The notes beneath the pieces are model-generated. The model saw only the letters and a list, made by a program, of their open reading frames with translations, did not search any database and was not told where the DNA came from. Positions 1 to 6,059 of a DNA stretch of 6,059 nucleotides are shown here, in pieces. Made by a program: the position numbers and the translations under genes. Each line of letters begins with the position of its first letter. Position 1 is the first letter of the stretch. The stretch comes from JALXCG01 sp026991065 [NCBI: Gemmatimonadota bacterium] (GTDB lineage: Bacteria; GCA-2686955), in NCBI GenBank assembly GCA_026991065.1, contig JALXCG010000412.1, positions 1 to 6,059 of the forward strand, given 5' to 3'.

Positions 1-600
1 ACCCTGCTCCTGGGCGAGAAAATGCAGCGCCAGGCGTTCAATGTCACCGCGGCGCTGGTGCAGGGGCGGAATCGGCACCTCGACGGCGGCGATTCGGTAG
101 TAGAGATCTTCGCGAAAACGGCCGGCGGCGATCTCATCTTTCAGGCTTTTGTTGGTGGCGGTAAGCAGCCAGACATCGACCTTGCGCGGGCGGGTTTCGC
201 CCATTCGGTAGATCCGTCCATCATCGATTGCGCGCAGCAGTTTGGCCTGGAGTTCGAGCGTGATCTCGGCGATCTCATCGAGAAAGAGAACCCCGCCGTC
301 GGCCTCTTCGAACCAGCCGGTTTTGTCTCCGACCGCGCCTGTGAATGCCCCTCTGCGGTGACCGAACAGCTCAGATTCAGCGGTTCCCTCGCCCAGGTTG
401 GCGCAGTTGACCTGGATGAACGGCTTGTCGCCGCGGGCGCAGCGGCGCGCGATCTCTTCCGCCAGGAGATTCTTACCGCTTCCGGTTGGGCCGGTGAGCA
501 GCAGGCGCGGCAGGCGGCCGTTGGCTGCCGCGTAAGCGAGGATCGACTCGGCATGGGCGTAGAGTGCCTGCATCGGCTCGGAACCGCCGATGACCCGTCC
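1..600 (-). other. Domain: sigma-54-interacting AAA+ (residue 1429 onward, cut by window edge)
   Basis: The start VIGGSEPMQALYAHAESI is the standard entry of bacterial enhancer-binding protein ATPases. Walker A is GPTGSGKN with Lys1471 intact; Asn1472 sits where Glu, Ser or Thr is usual. ESELFGHRRGAFTGA (1503-1517) carries the intact sigma-54 contact loop. Walker B is LFLDE (Asp1536, Glu1537). TATN (1575-1578) marks sensor I, and FREDLYYRI (1590-1598) holds the conserved arginine region. The last residues, IPPLHQRRGDIERLALHFL, are also canonical. Everything needed for sigma-54 remodelling inside the window is present. Sensor II and the DNA-binding part lie outside. Confidence 0.97.
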
Positions 601-3600
601 CCACGAGTCGCGGTGGGCGTAGTGGGCTTTCATGCCCCGCGTGACCTCGCGCTCGTCGTGCAGGCGGTTGGCTTCACCGCGCAACTGATCGACTGCCGCG
701 GTGCGCCGAATCAGACGACCGAAGATCCGGCCCATCGCCTCGAAGGCGTTGCGGGTCGACGGTGAGACCGCCAGGTGGTGGGTGCGATTGTCGACATAGA
801 CCACGCCGACCGGTAGGTCATCTTCGAGCAGGGGGACCGCGGCGACACTGAGGATGCCGAAGCGGCGAATCGATTCGAATCCGCTCAGCTCCTCGGCGCT
901 GTGGGCGTCGTCGTGCAGCAGCAATTCGCCGCGCCGGCTGCGGTTGAGAACCCCGGCCGACCAGGTGTGGGCATCCTTCACCGTTTCCGGATCGACGCCG
1001 CGCGTGACATGGGGGCGCAACTCACCCGAGGGAGGATCGACCAGAAAGAGGATGCCGCGTTCGCCATGCAGCAGATCGAGCGTGAGATCGAGCAGGCGCG
1101 GCAGCAGATCGGGCAGGCTTTCGCCGGCGGCGATCTCTTCGAGCACGTGGATCAGGGTGCCGAACGGAGTGGGAGATGTTCCGTTGGGGTTGGCGGCGGC
1201 GGAGGCGGCGCGGATCCGGGCGGCGTCGATCTGCTGCTCGGTGGCCTGCAATAGACGCAGCATCTCGGCTTCCTCGGGAACCTCCTCCAGCATGGCTCGC
1301 GCCTCCAGAACCCGGTCGCGGGCGGCGGCGTCCTGGCTGCGGGCGGCGAGCGCCGAGGCATGGTCGAGCAGGGCCGGGAATTCTTCGGAGATGCCAAGGG
1401 CGCGCATCTGCAGAACTGCGCTGTGCAGTTGCCGATCCGCGGTGGTCAGAAGGCCGCGGGAGAGGGCGGAGCGGCCACTGATCCAGGCGGCGAGCGCGGA
1501 AAAGGAGTCGGCCTGCGCCGCGGAGTGGGTGGCCAGGACCGTATCGGTCAGCGTGGCCGCATCCGTGGCTCTTCCTTCGGCCAGCAGGAGTTCCGCTTTC
1601 AGCAGGGTGACGATTTCGGCGATGCGGCTTTCCGGAGCCGCCTCGATCATCTTCTGGTCGCGGTCGAACAGGGTCCGGGCCTGGTCGGGGCGACCGCGGC
1701 GGCAGGCGATCTGGATGCGGCGCAAAGCGATTTCAGGATCGCGCGGCGCCAACTTCCCGCCGCGGGCGGCGTGAGCTTCCGCTTCGGTCCAGCGCAGCAG
1801 ATGCATCTCCAGGCGGATCCAGGTTTGCTCGGCCATGAGGCGGTGGGCGGGGCTCTCCACACCCGCCAGGGCCTGGTCCACACTTTCCAGGGTCTGCCGC
1901 GCGGCAGTGACCCGCCGGAGGCGGATCAGGTCGACCGCCAGACTGGTGCGCAGCCAGGCGGCATCGAGAATGCGGCCGGCGCCGGCCGCGGCGGCGATCG
2001 CTTCGCGCAGATCGGCCACTGCTTCTTCGATCCGCGAGAGACGTTCGAGAACCCGCGCGCGCGAGGCCAGGAGATTGAGCAGCACATTGATGTGGCCGAA
2101 CTCGCGAACCCGCGGCATCGCCTGATCGAAGAGGGTGATCGCTTCGTCGAATTTGTGCTCGGCGCTGGCGATCGCGGCGAGACGCAACTCGGCGAAGATG
2201 CAGATTTCAGTGTCGCCCCAACTCGCTGCCGCGGCCCGCGCCGCGGTGAATCCGGCGCGCGCTTCCTGCAGCCGGCCATCCCGGAAATCTACCTCGGCGC
2301 AGCTCTGTGTGGCGCGCAACGCCAGAGGGGCGGCGCCTAGTCGGGTGGCGATCTCCAGCGCTTCCCGCGCCGCCCGCCCGGCCGCCACCAGGTTGCGGGT
2401 TGCGCCCAGGGCTTCCGCCAGGGCGAGGGAGTCGTACCCGACAGTGAGTTCACTGCCCTGTCGGCGGGCGGTGTTGATCGCCGCTTCGATCTGCGGCAGC
2501 GCCTCCTCGCTGCGGCCGGTCGCGGCCAGCGCCCGCCCGAGAGAGATCTGAGACTGATGGAGGGTGGCGGCGTCGGCTGCGGAGGCCCCGCGGCGGCTGC
2601 CAAGGTAGTCCACCAATGGGGCCAGAAAGGCGATCGCGTCCGCCGCCGATTCACTCTCCACCAGGGCGGCGCCGAGGGCGCTGAGCGCGCCGATCGCGAT
2701 TTTCGCCAGCGCTGGAGTCTGGCCGTCGAGCAGTGGTTGCAGCGTGGCGGCGGTCGGCAGCGGCGCCGGAACCGCGGCGGCGGTGGTGAAATGGGACCAG
2801 GCCGCGCGCGCGTGGCCGGCGGCGCGCTGAGCATCATGGCTGGCCAGGGCGGCGTTGGCGGCGGCCACACAGGCGCGCGCATAGGCGGGATCATCGGCCG
2901 CGATGTGACGCAGTGCCAGGTCGGTCAGTTCCTGGGCTTGGGCGGGAGGTGTGGCGGCATCACCGACGACCTCTTCGATGGCGTCAAGCGCAGCGTCGAA
3001 AGCTCCGCAGCCGAGCTGGTGGCGGGCGCGCAGGAATGGTGGGATCGGCTCGCTGCCGGCGGCCAGGCGGCGCAGCGCGCGCTGGTGCATCCGGCGCGCG
3101 CGAACCCGGCCGAGATCCTCGCGGACCAGGGCGACGACCCGCTCTGTCGCCGGACGGAAACGCCGCTGGGCGTCGTGGCGCAGCAACCCCAGTTGCGTTA
3201 GGTGTTCAAGATGCGACTGTAGTTTGGCGTCGGGTGCGTCGAGCAGGGATTGCAGTTCCGCCGGAGTCGCGGGGAGCGTATGCACAACCGCGGCTTCGAG
3301 CAGTGCTTGCTCGCCCGGCGAAAGGTGGGTCAAGAGTTGCAGAATGCTCTTGTCGTCAACGCTGATCAGTGCTTCAACCTTGGCCGCGGCCTGAGCATCG
3401 GTGAGCCCGGAGAGGGTGCCCGGAGTGAGGCGCTGGGCCAGGTCGATGATGCGCCCGGGTTGACCCCGGGTGTGACGCTGGACCGCTTCGAGCACGCGCT
3501 CCCGGATCTCGCCCGGCTCGCACTGGAGGGCCCAGGCGAGAAGCGCGCGGGTGGCGGCGCGAGTGAGAGGGGCGAGCCGGGCGCAAGGCACGTCACCGGC

Positions 3601-4884
3601 GCGGTCGCTGATGGCGACCAGACCCACATCCTGCACGGGGTGCTCGGCCCAGATCTGTTCGACGATCCTCAGATTGTGGTGGTCCAGCGGCTCCTTGAGC
3701 AGCAGCAGCAGCGGCGTTTCAAGGTGGCCCGCGAGCAAGCGCAGGATTTCGACGAGAGCGTGGGAGCGGGCGGCGTGAATCGCTTCCCAGGGGGCGCCTG
3801 GAGGGGCCGCGGCGGCATCGGCGAGGGCCCGGGGGAGTGGCCCGAGACACGCCTCGCACCACTGCCTGGCGGCGGCGAGCAGGGCTCGCCATGGGGTCGC
3901 GCCGTCGATCTCCAAGACCCGCCAGCCCTGGACTCTGGCGCGGTCCGCGATCTCCATGGCAAAGCGTTTGCGGCCACTGCCGCGGCCTCCTACCACCCGG
4001 AACACCCCGCCCGCGCGGCGCTTCAACCAGTCATCGGCGCCGACCAGGGAGTCTTCCCGGCCGCAGAAGGGGGGGCGCAAGTGCTCGAGCGGAAAGTGCG
4101 TGGGTTGCCGCAGCCGGGCCCCCGGTTGCGCGGCCAGGAGGGTTTCGATCTCTTCAACCAGGGGCGCTGGAATCTGCTCCAGGGAGAGCGGGGGGATGAC
4201 CTCTGCCTGGTCGAGCGGGAGGTGCTCGCCGCGGCTCGCGGCACGCAGAATCGCGCGACTGTTGGCGCCCTCGTGGGGGGGGCGGCCGGTGAGAGCGTGA
4301 TAGAGGCAAGCGCCGAGGCTGAAGGCATCCGCCGCGGCGGTGGGGTGCTCGCCGCGCGCCAACTCCGGTGCGGTGTAGTGGGGGGTGCCGGTGAGCCCGC
4401 GCCGGGTCTTGCCGCTGAGCTGGGCGAGACCGAGATCCAGCAGGGTGACCTGCGGACCGGGGTCGGCGATGAGGATGTGGGCCGGTTTGAGGTCGAGATG
4501 CAGCATGCCGGCGGCGTGAATTGCGCCGACCGCCGCCCTTGCCTGGGCGACCACCGCGGCAAAGAGATCCCAGGGCGGCAGCGGTGCTGCTTCCACCTGG
4601 GCCCGCCACCACTCGGTCAGGGGGCGTCCCGGCGCCAGGCTCATGCAGAGGTAGCCCCACTCCGCCTGGGGATCGCGACCGACATCGAGAAGCTGTACCA
4701 CGCCGGCGGCGGTGACCCGCCGTCCCGCCTGCCATTCGGTGATCGCATCGGCTGCGGTGGGCGTGATCTTGAGTGCGACCTCTTGCTCCGATGCCAAGTC
4801 GCGGGCGCGGAAGACAGAGCCGCTCGCGCCCTCGCCGAGCAGTTCCTCGGTGCGGTAGCGCTGGGCGACGATGGTGTGGAGCAC
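1..4884 (-). CDS. Ser/Thr kinase-STAND-TPR-GAF-sigma-54 activator fusion protein (partial, C-terminus outside window)
   Basis: This frame holds 1628 codons with no stop and continues past position 1. Domains by residue: Ser/Thr kinase 10-260, degenerate NTPase-like module and winged helix about 273-600, TPR array about 625-1225, GAF about 1240-1392, sigma-54 AAA+ from about 1429. The AAA+ part has GPTGSGKN (1465-1472), GAFTGA (1512-1517) and Walker B LFLDE (1533-1537). From family knowledge, such AAA+ domains hydrolyse ATP to open sigma-54 promoter complexes, so this is probably a cytoplasmic transcriptional activator carrying its own kinase. The usual C-terminal helix-turn-helix would lie outside the window. 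I chose the GTG at 4884 because GAGGA sits 9 bases upstream and the kinase fold begins within 10 residues. An in-frame ATG at 4959, directly after a TAA, would add 25 Arg/Pro-rich residues but has no visible Shine-Dalgarno. The gene is divergent from the GGDEF gene. Domain identity is clear; target genes and signal are unknown. Confidence 0.95.
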   Translation of the reverse strand, partial: MLHTIVAQRYRTEELLGEGASGSVFRARDLASEQEVALKITPTAADAITEWQAGRRVTAAGVVQLLDVGRDPQAEWGYLCMSLAPGRPLTEWWRAQVEAAPLPPWDLFAAVVAQARAAVGAIHAAGMLHLDLKPAHILIADPGPQVTLLDLGLAQLSGKTRRGLTGTPHYTAPELARGEHPTAAADAFSLGACLYHALTGRPPHEGANSRAILRAASRGEHLPLDQAEVIPPLSLEQIPAPLVEEIETLLAAQPGARLRQPTHFPLEHLRPPFCGREDSLVGADDWLKRRAGGVFRVVGGRGSGRKRFAMEIADRARVQGWRVLEIDGATPWRALLAAARQWCEACLGPLPRALADAAAAPPGAPWEAIHAARSHALVEILRLLAGHLETPLLLLLKEPLDHHNLRIVEQIWAEHPVQDVGLVAISDRAGDVPCARLAPLTRAATRALLAWALQCEPGEIRERVLEAVQRHTRGQPGRIIDLAQRLTPGTLSGLTDAQAAAKVEALISVDDKSILQLLTHLSPGEQALLEAAVVHTLPATPAELQSLLDAPDAKLQSHLEHLTQLGLLRHDAQRRFRPATERVVALVREDLGRVRARRMHQRALRRLAAGSEPIPPFLRARHQLGCGAFDAALDAIEEVVGDAATPPAQAQELTDLALRHIAADDPAYARACVAAANAALASHDAQRAAGHARAAWSHFTTAAAVPAPLPTAATLQPLLDGQTPALAKIAIGALSALGAALVESESAADAIAFLAPLVDYLGSRRGASAADAATLHQSQISLGRALAATGRSEEALPQIEAAINTARRQGSELTVGYDSLALAEALGATRNLVAAGRAAREALEIATRLGAAPLALRATQSCAEVDFRDGRLQEARAGFTAARAAAASWGDTEICIFAELRLAAIASAEHKFDEAITLFDQAMPRVREFGHINVLLNLLASRARVLERLSRIEEAVADLREAIAAAAGAGRILDAAWLRTSLAVDLIRLRRVTAARQTLESVDQALAGVESPAHRLMAEQTWIRLEMHLLRWTEAEAHAARGGKLAPRDPEIALRRIQIACRRGRPDQARTLFDRDQKMIEAAPESRIAEIVTLLKAELLLAEGRATDAATLTDTVLATHSAAQADSFSALAAWISGRSALSRGLLTTADRQLHSAVLQMRALGISEEFPALLDHASALAARSQDAAARDRVLEARAMLEEVPEEAEMLRLLQATEQQIDAARIRAASAAANPNGTSPTPFGTLIHVLEEIAAGESLPDLLPRLLDLTLDLLHGERGILFLVDPPSGELRPHVTRGVDPETVKDAHTWSAGVLNRSRRGELLLHDDAHSAEELSGFESIRRFGILSVAAVPLLEDDLPVGVVYVDNRTHHLAVSPSTRNAFEAMGRIFGRLIRRTAAVDQLRGEANRLHDEREVTRGMKAHYAHRDSWGRVIGGSEPMQALYAHAESILAYAAANGRLPRLLLTGPTGSGKNLLAEEIARRCARGDKPFIQVNCANLGEGTAESELFGHRRGAFTGAVGDKTGWFEEADGGVLFLDEIAEITLELQAKLLRAIDDGRIYRMGETRPRKVDVWLLTATNKSLKDEIAAGRFREDLYYRIAAVEVPIPPLHQRRGDIERLALHFLAQEQG
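709..1167 (-). other. Domain: GAF sensor (residues about 1240-1392)
   Basis: The segment starts with the helix FGTLIHVLEEIAAGESLPDL. It then shows the alternating strands of a GAF fold: GERGILFLVDPPSGEL (1274-1289), a central helix region, and ILSVAAVPLLEDDLPVGVVYVDNR (1344-1367), which is the typical GAF C-terminal strand pair. It directly precedes the AAA+ domain, the same order as in NifA, FhlA and NorR, where the GAF domain controls the ATPase. No obvious metal or haem ligand cluster is visible, so the signal cannot be named. Confidence 0.88.
1210..3012 (-). other. Domain: TPR array (residues about 625-1225)
   Basis: This is about 600 residues of alanine- and leucine-rich amphipathic helices with no Walker motifs or membrane segments. 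The clearest repeats end in RSEEALPQIEAAINTARRQG, NLVAAGRAAREALEIATRLG, RLQEARAGFTAARAAAASWG, KFDEAITLFDQAMPRVREFG and RIEEAVADLREAIAAAAGAG. These place a glycine at residues 810, 850, 890, 930 and 970, exactly 40 residues apart. That spacing matches the extended 40-residue TPR seen in MalT-like and LGN-like proteins, not the classical 34. From family knowledge the array is likely a superhelical scaffold for protein or ligand binding. Residues before about 760 and after about 1010 are more irregular. Confidence 0.85.
3085..4068 (-). other. Domain: degenerate STAND/AAA-type NTPase-like module plus winged helix (residues about 273-600)
   Basis: The module opens with FCGREDSL (273-280), the usual entry to AAA_16/STAND ATPases that follow bacterial kinase domains. 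A P-loop-like GGRGSGRKR (299-307) follows, with Arg305 at the position of the catalytic lysine and Lys306 at the Ser/Thr position. The Walker B-like strand LLLLLKE (392-398) has Lys397 where aspartate is expected. VGLVAISDR (420-428) resembles the following sensor strand. Residues about 510-600 read as a winged-helix/helical connector (LSPGEQALLEAAVV, LTQLGLLR). The position and overall pattern fit a STAND module, but nucleotide hydrolysis looks doubtful. Confidence 0.72.
4105..4857 (-). other. Domain: Ser/Thr protein kinase (residues about 10-260)
   Basis: Visible kinase landmarks are the glycine loop GEGASGSVFRA (17-27), the ATP-anchoring lysine in VALK (K39), a likely alpha-C glutamate (E50), the catalytic loop HLDLKPAH (129-136) with D131 and K133, DLG in place of DFG (150-152), the activation segment with GTPHYTAPE (166-174), and DAFSLG (186-191). 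The domain is slightly compact because the stretch between K39 and E50 is about ten residues shorter than usual. Two positions depart from consensus: Leu130 replaces the HRD arginine, and His136 replaces the metal-binding asparagine. From the sequence it is a Hanks-type kinase. Whether it still phosphorylates is uncertain. Confidence 0.93.
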
Positions 4885-5103
4885 AGAGAATCGTCCTCGA
4901 AGAAGAGTGGCGGTGGGAAACAGCGGCGCACGATGAGCCGGGGGCCGTGTCCGGCGCATTTACTGACAAGAGAATAAACCTGAAGAGCGGAAAAACGGTC
5001 GCCGATCACAAATAATGAGATCTCCGCCCCCGTTGCGGATCCCGTTCCGCGCGAGGCGCTTTCCCGTCCCGCTTCCTGGCCACAATCTCAAGCAAAAGAA
5101 ACC
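4885..5103. promoter_or_regulatory. Divergent intergenic region with weak promoter candidates
   Basis: The 219 bases between the two divergent genes must hold both promoters unless one gene is read from elsewhere. AT-rich patches lie at about 4960-5020 and 5083-5103. On the plus strand, AATAAT at 5011-5016 resembles a -10 box, with a poor -35 (CGGAAA, 4988-4993) at 17-base spacing. On the minus strand, TATTCT (4976-4971) resembles a -10 box but has no good -35 partner. No convincing sigma-54 -24/-12 pair, operator palindrome, terminator or riboswitch is visible. The cyclase start has only a weak purine tract (AAAAGAAA, 5094-5101). Confidence 0.35.
4894..4898 (-). promoter_or_regulatory. Ribosome binding site for the kinase-activator gene
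   Basis: GAGGA on the minus strand ends 9 bases before the GTG at 4884. It is the reason for preferring GTG over the ATG at 4959, which is preceded by a sequence with no Shine-Dalgarno-like purine run. Confidence 0.65.
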
Positions 5104-6059
5104 ATGGCATTCTACCTTATCGCATTTCTGGCATCCTCGGTAACCGCCGGTGTGATTGGCTATGCCGCCGCGCTCAAAGCAGCAGGCGGCGGGCAGGGGA
5201 GGGAGAGTGCAAAGAAGAAGGTGGAACTGGAAGCGCAACTCAAGGCTGCGCGCAGCGCGTTCGCCGCTCTGGGCGGCATGCTCTCGCGTACCCATGAGTC
5301 GGTGGAGACGCAAACCCATCGCTTGACCACCTTGCGGCGCGATCTGGCGGCCAAGCCGGACATGGAGCCGGCGGATGTGGTGGCGATTCTGCTGGCGGAA
5401 CTCGACCGTGTGCTGGCGGAAAACATGCGCCTCGGCAGGGATCTGCGGGAGGCGCGGCAGACGGTGGCCCGGCAGGAGGAGGCACTGAGCGAACTGCGCG
5501 AGGAGGCGCGTACCGATGGTTTGACGCGGATTGCCAATCGCCGCGAATTCGATACGCGGATTTTTGCTCAGCACGACCGCTTCGAGCGTCTGGGTGAGAC
5601 CTACTCGTTGATCATGATCGACATCGATCACTTCAAGCGGATCAACGATGAGCGGGGACATCCGGTGGGCGACAAGGTGATCACGGGAGTGGCCGAGATG
5701 GTGGCTTCCTGCATCAATCCGGCGGATCTGGTGGCGCGTTACGGTGGCGAGGAGTTTGCGGTTTTGCTGCCGCGGGCGACTGCCGCGGGAGCGCAGCGTG
5801 TGGCCGAGAAGATCCGCGCGAAGGTGGAGCGAACCTCTTTCTGGTGCGATGACCGGCCGATATCGGTGACGATTTCGCTGGGGGTGGCGCAGATTGCCGA
5901 GACGGAGGAGTTGGAGGGGCTGGTGCGCCGGGCGGATGCCGCGCTCTATGACGCGAAGAGCAATGGGCGCAACCAGGTGCGCGTGTCGGAGGTGGCCGTC
6001 AAGGACGTCGAGGAGCGGGTTAAGGGGATTCTGGAGGGGGTGACCGCAGAGGCGCGGGA
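5104..6059 (+). CDS. Membrane-anchored GGDEF diguanylate cyclase (partial, C-terminus outside window)
   Basis: The frame gives 318 codons plus two bases and is still open at the window end. Residues 3-24 form one hydrophobic helix followed by Lys/Arg (K25, R33, K37-39), which suggests a membrane anchor with the rest in the cytoplasm. Residues about 34-135 are charged and probably coiled-coil or helical linker. The GGDEF domain runs from about 137 to 293: DGLTRIANRR (138-147), Asp173 in IDIDHFKRIND, GHPVGD (185-190), the active-site GGEEF (214-218) and RADAALYDAKSNGRN (276-290). From family knowledge it makes c-di-GMP from two GTP as a dimer. The I-site reads NPAD (205-208), not RxxD, so product inhibition there is probably lost. 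There is no periplasmic sensor domain. The ATG at 5104 is preferred because no earlier in-frame start is visible nearby and the TM helix begins at once; its ribosome binding site is weak. About 25 residues beyond the domain are unexplained. Confidence 0.95.
   Translation, partial: MAFYLIAFLASSVTAGVIGYAAALKAAGGGQGRESAKKKVELEAQLKAARSAFAALGGMLSRTHESVETQTHRLTTLRRDLAAKPDMEPADVVAILLAELDRVLAENMRLGRDLREARQTVARQEEALSELREEARTDGLTRIANRREFDTRIFAQHDRFERLGETYSLIMIDIDHFKRINDERGHPVGDKVITGVAEMVASCINPADLVARYGGEEFAVLLPRATAAGAQRVAEKIRAKVERTSFWCDDRPISVTISLGVAQIAETEELEGLVRRADAALYDAKSNGRNQVRVSEVAVKDVEERVKGILEGVTAEAR

Follow-up and report, generated by a model that had tools for sequence, protein, structure and literature searches.

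A Ser/Thr kinase joined to a sigma-54 activator through STAND-like, TPR-like and GAF modules in a Gemmatimonadota bacterium

The window analysed here, a stretch of 6,059 nucleotides from the Gemmatimonadota bacterium JALXCG01 sp026991065 (contig JALXCG010000412.1), encodes a Ser/Thr kinase, a STAND-like domain, a TPR-like superhelix, a GAF domain and a sigma-54 activator AAA+ domain, in that order and in one reading frame (positions 1–4884, minus strand, C-terminus cut by the contig end). This fusion is a genuine modular signalling protein but not a unique one, since the same arrangement is seen in numerous bacteria of distant kinship and other outputs take the place of the motor in relatives. 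The best reading of the data is that the sigma-54 activator is one interchangeable output of a PknK/MalT-like sensor chassis. Ser/Thr kinases and sigma-54 activators, usually studied apart, are thereby joined in one chain.

Domain architecture of the fusion protein

The minus-strand frame is open from an ATG at position 4959 to base 1 and comprises 1653 amino acids with no stops. A GTG at 4884, with a GAGGA stretch upstream, provides an alternative start and fits the alignment with the closest relative (L055, from a sister genus), whose own GTG start was picked mechanically. On these grounds the true start is probably, not certainly, the GTG at 4884, with the ATG as the alternative. The open frame and the Pfam matches confirm the claim of the initial annotation that kinase and sigma-54 activator share one polypeptide with this domain order. 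The contig is exactly 6059 bases long and ends inside the fusion protein, so that the AAA+ lid and the helix-turn-helix (HTH) lie off the contig. The Fis-type HTH for which a search had been proposed is therefore not visible in the window, but all 27 C-termini of relatives that were scanned carry the lid, and 25 of them carry HTH_8. None of the 23 AAA+ lid matches in the same genome (22 of them above the cut-off) fits as the missing C-terminal piece, judged by positions alone, and no other contig was listed as overlapping the first 3000 bases of the window.

The Hanks-type Ser/Thr kinase domain (4114–4857, minus strand) was identified by Pfam Pkinase with E-values from 2.4e-29 to 1.2e-28. A structure search with its predicted model matched PknB (Z = 27.1, rmsd 2.4 across 242 residues). 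Besides the kinase fold, alignments show the VAIK lysine, the helix-C glutamate, the catalytic aspartate, the loop lysine and the aspartate at the DFG position. The catalytic loop HLDLKPAH (4477–4500, minus strand) keeps its aspartate and lysine, and the metal-binding asparagine of the HRDxxxxN motif is replaced by histidine, as it is in L052 and L055.

The STAND-like (AAA_16-type) domain (3421–4020, minus strand) was recognized by a profile of the relatives from which the window was withheld (3.3e-17); Pfam AAA_16 gave no match in residues 300–500 of the window protein. AAA_16 was matched in 19 of 24 N-terminal rows, the row of the window not being among them. The Walker A motif is degenerate in the alignment (GGRGSGRKR, 3964–3990, minus strand), and the Walker B segment reads LLLLLKE where an aspartate is expected; GK[ST] is present in four of eight aligned members. 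The proposed STAND module is thus supported at the level of the profile, but neither Walker motif of the window copy is canonical. It is therefore doubtful that this copy could work as a full ADP/ATP switch. The fold-search lists gave nothing on the STAND part, because the kinase domain filled both of them.

The following region (1192–3108, minus strand) is predicted to form a TPR-like helical superhelix of about 30 consecutive helices with a mean pLDDT of 80.9, and its putative identity rests mainly on this model. The Foldseek list for the superhelix holds TPR proteins and, at rank 9, the STAND-TPR protein 6mfv. Pfam gave one weak TPR_12 match (26.6 bits, below its cut-off of 30.1), and the TPR profile of the relatives, with the window withheld, gave no match on the window.

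The GAF domain (727–1113, minus strand) was found by Pfam (1.6e-5) and by the relatives' profile with the window withheld (6.1e-25). It is followed by the sigma-54 activator AAA+ domain (76–591, minus strand; Pfam Sigma54_activat, 1.5e-54). The GAFTGA loop (334–351, minus strand) is intact, as had been stated beforehand. Both Walker motifs and the FREDLYYR segment are intact as well, so that the domain has the AAA+ core of a sigma-54 activator. Sigma-54 itself is represented in the genome by one rpoN match (PF04552, 1.6e-64).

Recurrence, exchange of outputs and known systems

Counting the window, at least 29 proteins, spread over at least 22 of the 386 genomes searched and over 17 family codes, hold kinase and sigma-54 domains in one frame. 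The initial annotation had regarded the domain order as unusual, which this architecture search does not bear out. It had also considered that the architecture might be common and already characterised. The fusion is indeed recurrent, but the literature search yielded no characterisation: in a search that covered only a minority of subscription journals, no paper was recognized, from titles and the beginnings of abstracts, as reporting the fusion of a kinase with a sigma-54 activator. The word "sigma" was not found in PMC1262709 and PMC2176072, and its single mention in PMC11032199 refers to an ECF sigma domain.

The same kinase-STAND-TPR(-GAF) chassis also occurs without a recognized second output, or with a histidine kinase, a SpoIIE-type phosphatase or GGDEF in place of the activator. 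Among eleven scanned GAF-bearing relatives without a sigma-54 domain, seven carry histidine kinase modules, two SpoIIE and two GGDEF. In another fifteen relatives the kinase-STAND part is followed by TPR-type families alone (11 proteins) or by no recognized family (4 proteins), and in two proteins (L107 and L108) TPR, GAF and sigma-54 domains occur without any kinase found. On the N-terminal tree the activator label requires 12 changes, three of which are forced by starred branches. One genome contains a split form, with two genes in the same frame separated by 39 bases, which offers a natural comparison for the fused protein. Only the N-terminal architecture is visible for L055, which runs off its contig after 610 amino acids. 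None of the 3107 plasmid records with a match to the relative L059 covers at least 80% of it.

As a tentative, broader possibility, these proteins may form a widespread, apparently undescribed plug-in class, in which sigma-54 activators, histidine kinases, PP2C-type phosphatases and diguanylate cyclases were repeatedly placed on one kinase-STAND-TPR-GAF chassis. The activator version would then combine kinase, sensing and promoter opening in one chain and would here control the divergent diguanylate cyclase gene. A common sensor chassis with interchangeable outputs makes it possible to test whether the kinase governs the output fused to it or forms a second output itself.

Several known systems share parts of this architecture. 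PknK of Mycobacterium tuberculosis, a Ser/Thr kinase, is assigned to the MalT-type STAND subfamily in PMC4381067. Both proteins link a kinase to a STAND domain and, as is typical of that class, to a sensor made of repeats, whereas the STAND motifs of the window are degenerate. PknK is not known to have a GAF domain, a sigma-54 AAA+ domain or a Fis-type HTH. With NifA-type activators the window protein shares the GAF-AAA+ arrangement (plus the HTH in relatives), but it has the long kinase-STAND-TPR part in front. The NifA equivalog model TIGR01817 matches at 9.7e-70 with 235.8 bits, far below its cut-off of 528.85 bits; the window copy is cut before the HTH. According to PMC2176072, HstK is a cyanobacterial dual kinase (cbSTKIII) with a Ser/Thr kinase, GAF and HisKA. 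It likewise combines a Ser/Thr kinase and GAF with a further catalytic output in a single chain; its output, however, is a histidine kinase in place of a sigma-54 AAA+ activator. The relatives with histidine kinase modules resemble the HstK type. On the Rhizobium jaguaris plasmid pRCCGE525c (L117) the same two functions are present as two proteins, encoded by adjacent GAF-sigma54-HTH and kinase genes on one strand; neither protein has a Pfam match to a STAND or TPR family.

Some loci only resembled the fusion. Long matches in the Bdellovibrionota (L014, L015, L017, L020 and L021) initially seemed to have this architecture. The match in L014 and L015 proved to be a pair of distinct sigma-54-type genes that flank a gene of 927–958 amino acids, and the frame positions show the same for L020 and L021; Pfam at 1e-5 gave nothing for the middle gene of L014. 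Kinase matches in L011, L013, L016 and L019 are frames of 848–980 amino acids. In genome G086 (L061) the order differs, with sigma-54 and HTH followed by AAA_16 and TPR.

Proposed mechanism and alternative roles of the kinase

Based on the domain architecture and the comparisons we propose, with somewhat better than even confidence, that the protein is a one-protein switch, in which a PknK/MalT-like kinase-STAND-TPR chassis together with GAF controls a NifA-like sigma-54 AAA+ activator. A ligand or partner protein would bind to the TPR/GAF arm, upon which the fusion protein would shift its oligomeric state. The AAA+ ring would then assemble and, at target promoters, remodel the sigma-54 RNA polymerase. 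Provided that it is active, the kinase could either set the threshold in cis by autophosphorylation or provide a second output directed at other proteins. Counting against this proposal are the degenerate STAND motifs, the histidine in the kinase loop, the negative promoter search between the divergent genes, and the relatives with broken kinase motifs (L103 and L104) or with no kinase found (L107 and L108).

Alternatively, the kinase could be the main working part in cis and phosphorylate the GAF/AAA+ portion of its own or a neighboring subunit, thereby switching the ATPase in a kinase-to-promoter pathway within one chain. This is consistent with the five kinase residues kept in the window, with the retention of the lysine and both aspartates in 27 of 29 activator fusions and with the adjacent genes on the Rhizobium plasmid. 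A review also reports that in Vibrio alginolyticus the regulator VtsR becomes phosphorylated through PpkA2 (PMC10482370). The exchange of asparagine for histidine in the window and the clearly broken kinase motifs in two of 29 relatives (L103 and L104) argue against it, and we regard a leading role of the kinase as rather unlikely. The same histidine, shared with L052 and L055, would suit a pseudokinase, i.e. a nucleotide- or partner-binding regulatory domain that phosphorylates nothing. In line with this, 19 of the 39 chassis proteins that have a second output lack at least one of six kinase motif residues, versus one of the 15 that have none (Fisher p = 0.004), although the two groups were found by different profiles, which favors intact kinases in the no-output group. 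The contrast is not shown independently of kinship, as starred branches leave three independent pairs with a median p of 1, and all four scored kinase residues are present in 23 of 29 activator fusions versus 23 of 26 of all others (p = 0.48). The trend towards relaxed kinases is therefore only suggestive and, with the catalytic aspartate and lysine intact in the window, a pseudokinase appears improbable.

An assembly or sequencing artefact might be suspected in a fragmented metagenome-assembled genome of 902 contigs with a contig end inside the gene. However, many other assemblies carry the same architecture as a stop-free frame, with single-contig matches that cover nearly all of the 1732-position model. 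An artefact as the origin of the architecture in general is already refuted, and for the fusion itself it is extremely improbable.

The divergent GGDEF gene

Opposite to the fusion gene lies a divergent GGDEF (diguanylate cyclase) gene (5104–6057, plus strand), identified by Pfam, with a GGEEF motif and a 3' end that is open at the contig end. It is a plausible but unproven candidate target of the fused activator, which, if true, would tie the signal to cyclic-di-GMP. The promoter search gave no support for this. No exact sigma-54 promoter match was found within the window, and the region between the two genes (4885–5103, counted from the probable GTG start) has no clear -24/-12 promoter, its best GG-N10-GC candidates reaching seven of eleven consensus positions by our own scoring. 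Neither a sigma-70 promoter nor a terminator was found in 4800–5250. At the settings used, the intergenic region of the window yielded no inverted repeats; that of the sister genus holds three short ones. The GGDEF neighbor is conserved there with 59% identity across 315 amino acids, beside the 42%-identical kinase-STAND relative.

The window protein and its motifs

The genome of the window comprises 4.14 Mb in 902 contigs (83.8% complete), and the window is one entire contig of 6059 bases. A minus-strand frame runs from an ATG at 4959 to base 1, open throughout (1653 aa). Position 4884, where the initial annotation had ended the feature, is a GTG preceded by a GAGGA stretch; it agrees in the alignment with the start of the closest relative, from a sister genus (L055), and is probably the true start.

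Pfam matched Pkinase, GAF and Sigma54_activat in this single frame, which bears out the earlier reading of a kinase and a sigma-54 activator in one polypeptide. The modules proposed between them fared unevenly. The STAND-like part was found by a profile of relatives from which the window was excluded (3.3e-17; GAF 6.1e-25), with no Pfam match to AAA_16 in residues 300–500. The predicted model of residues 26–650 had a pLDDT of 87.6, and its kinase resembled PknB (Z 27.1). The proposed TPR array is favored by the model of residues 520–1290 (pLDDT 80.9), a long succession of helices for which Foldseek listed TPR proteins (the STAND-TPR protein 6mfv at rank 9, rmsd 7.7). Pfam TPR stayed below its cut-off, and the relatives' TPR profile, window excluded, gave no match in the window protein.

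The sigma-54 AAA+ core is intact, with Walker A, LFLDEI, FREDLYYR and the GAFTGA loop already noted in the initial annotation. Exact GAFTGA occurs in five of eight aligned members; the remaining three have GGFTGA, GAFSGA and GAYTSA. In the window protein, Walker A of the STAND-like domain reads GGRGSGRKR and lacks GK[ST], which is kept in 4/8 aligned members. The kinase retains Lys, helix-C Glu, catalytic Asp, loop Lys and the DFG-position Asp (DLG), with His in place of Asn in HLDLKPAH. The same replacement was seen in 5 of 31 kinase domains: the window, its paralogue L052, L055, L102 and L105. The kinase domain of a second paralogue (L053, own genome C837, 3266–8182) begins without a glycine-rich loop; the chosen start codon may be wrong.

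Recurrence of the fusion

The kinase-STAND-TPR-GAF-sigma-54 fusion is real and recurrent. A search of 98 genomes with the window protein gave long frames with sigma-54 ends, and Pfam found Pkinase together with Sigma54_activat in both paralogues of the same genome, in L054 of the sister genus and in four other genomes (L057–L060). An eight-member profile, run against 386 genomes with about two candidates scored per genome, matched at E 1e-60 or better in 330; among the matches listed, most span the GAF-sigma54 part alone.

With custom profiles we then tested 34 sources (20 further stretches together with loci from the 386-genome search). Both domains lay in one frame in 29, the window included, from 22 genomes and 17 family codes. 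The architecture search proposed initially thus places the fusion in at least 22 of 386 genomes, a lower bound because frames were fetched only from about 1300 aa upward. The other five sources were cut (L055, L078), split (L102) or had no kinase found (L107, L108), and kinase support was weak in L103 (9e-9) and L104 (5e-14). N-terminal parts were scanned from 24 proteins, comprising L055, L102 and 22 of the 29 fusions: Pfam matched Pkinase in all and AAA_16 in 19. Among 27 C-terminal parts (the 29 minus the cut window and L052) the AAA+ lid was present in all and HTH_8 in 25. Kinship to the window is at domain level only for the 21 hosts in other genomes, the sister genus (G001, family level) aside.

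L102 (G137:C16, minus strand) carries kinase-STAND-TPR in one frame and GAF-sigma54-HTH in the other. The two frames (561–2141 and 2181–5831; 526 and 1216 aa) lie 39 bases apart in the same reading frame, and L102 represents either a genuine two-frame variant or an error in the sequence.

Outputs of the chassis

A kinase-to-STAND profile run against 145 genomes gave many long frames, and 29 stretches were fetched, of which the output scan leaves out L131 and L143 (both cut). Custom profiles found GAF without a sigma-54 domain in 11 of the 29. According to Pfam these end in histidine kinase modules (seven, two of them also with receiver domains), SpoIIE-type phosphatases (two) or GGDEF (two: L134 of the sister genus, G001:C221, 269–4888, and L119, G106:C187, 346–6228, cut at the contig end; both with the kinase-STAND-TPR-GAF chassis). 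Fifteen further proteins had neither GAF nor sigma-54, and the chassis was followed by TPR or TPR-like families only in 11 and by no family in four; in L125 (cut) Pfam found TPR only. A quick tree was built from 55 N-terminal parts; it carries a long-branch warning, and 9 of its 52 inner branches are starred. On it the activator label requires 12 changes, at least three of them forced by starred branches. Since the chassis occurs with several outputs and the label requires repeated changes, the sigma-54 activator is most readily understood as one exchangeable output. A 2385-aa minus-strand frame (L130, G106:C88, 534–7688) contains the kinase-STAND module twice (residues 1–678 and 1202–1880). 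The window's own genome holds three further kinase-STAND frames, on C441 (L131), C468 (L143) and C168; two of these frames are truncated where the contig or the retrieved stretch ends.

All six kinase motif residues were complete in 14/15 chassis proteins without a second output versus 20/39 with one (Fisher p 0.004), a contrast in which the helix-C column is alignment-dependent and the groups were found with different profiles, which biases the group without output toward intact kinases. This comparison and the tree exclude L119, L102, L125, L131 and L143, and L055 is unlabelled. Three kinship-independent pairs on starred branches gave a median p of 1. Four residues (Lys, Asp, Asn, Asp) were complete in 23/29 activator fusions versus 23/26 of all other labelled proteins (p 0.48). 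We regard a link between kinase condition and second output as a lead only.

Genomic context and known relatives

A GGDEF gene with GGEEF retained is divergent from the window protein gene. In the sister genus a GGDEF gene (59% identical over 315 aa) holds the same divergent position beside a 42%-identical kinase-STAND relative. The conserved neighbor, together with a GGDEF-fused chassis in the same sister genus, suggests that cyclic-di-GMP may be a target, but the intergenic region of the window yielded no sigma-54 promoter. The own genome gave one rpoN match and 22 AAA+ lids over cut-off. In the mechanism we propose, an arm-sensed switch would control the AAA+ ring of the window protein.

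None of the best 25 NCBIfam matches per protein models this architecture, and a literature search with most subscription journals outside its scope found no account of a fusion between a kinase and a sigma-54 activator. MalT and PknK are grouped in one STAND subfamily (PMC4381067), and cyanobacterial HstK-type proteins combine Ser/Thr kinase, GAF and HisKA in one protein, with shuffling of such added domains argued for (PMC2176072). On the Rhizobium jaguaris plasmid pRCCGE525c (L117, 23–5337), genes for a Clp-like ATPase, a GAF-sigma54-HTH protein and a kinase are consecutive; our guess is that this row possibly belongs to a type VI secretion cluster.
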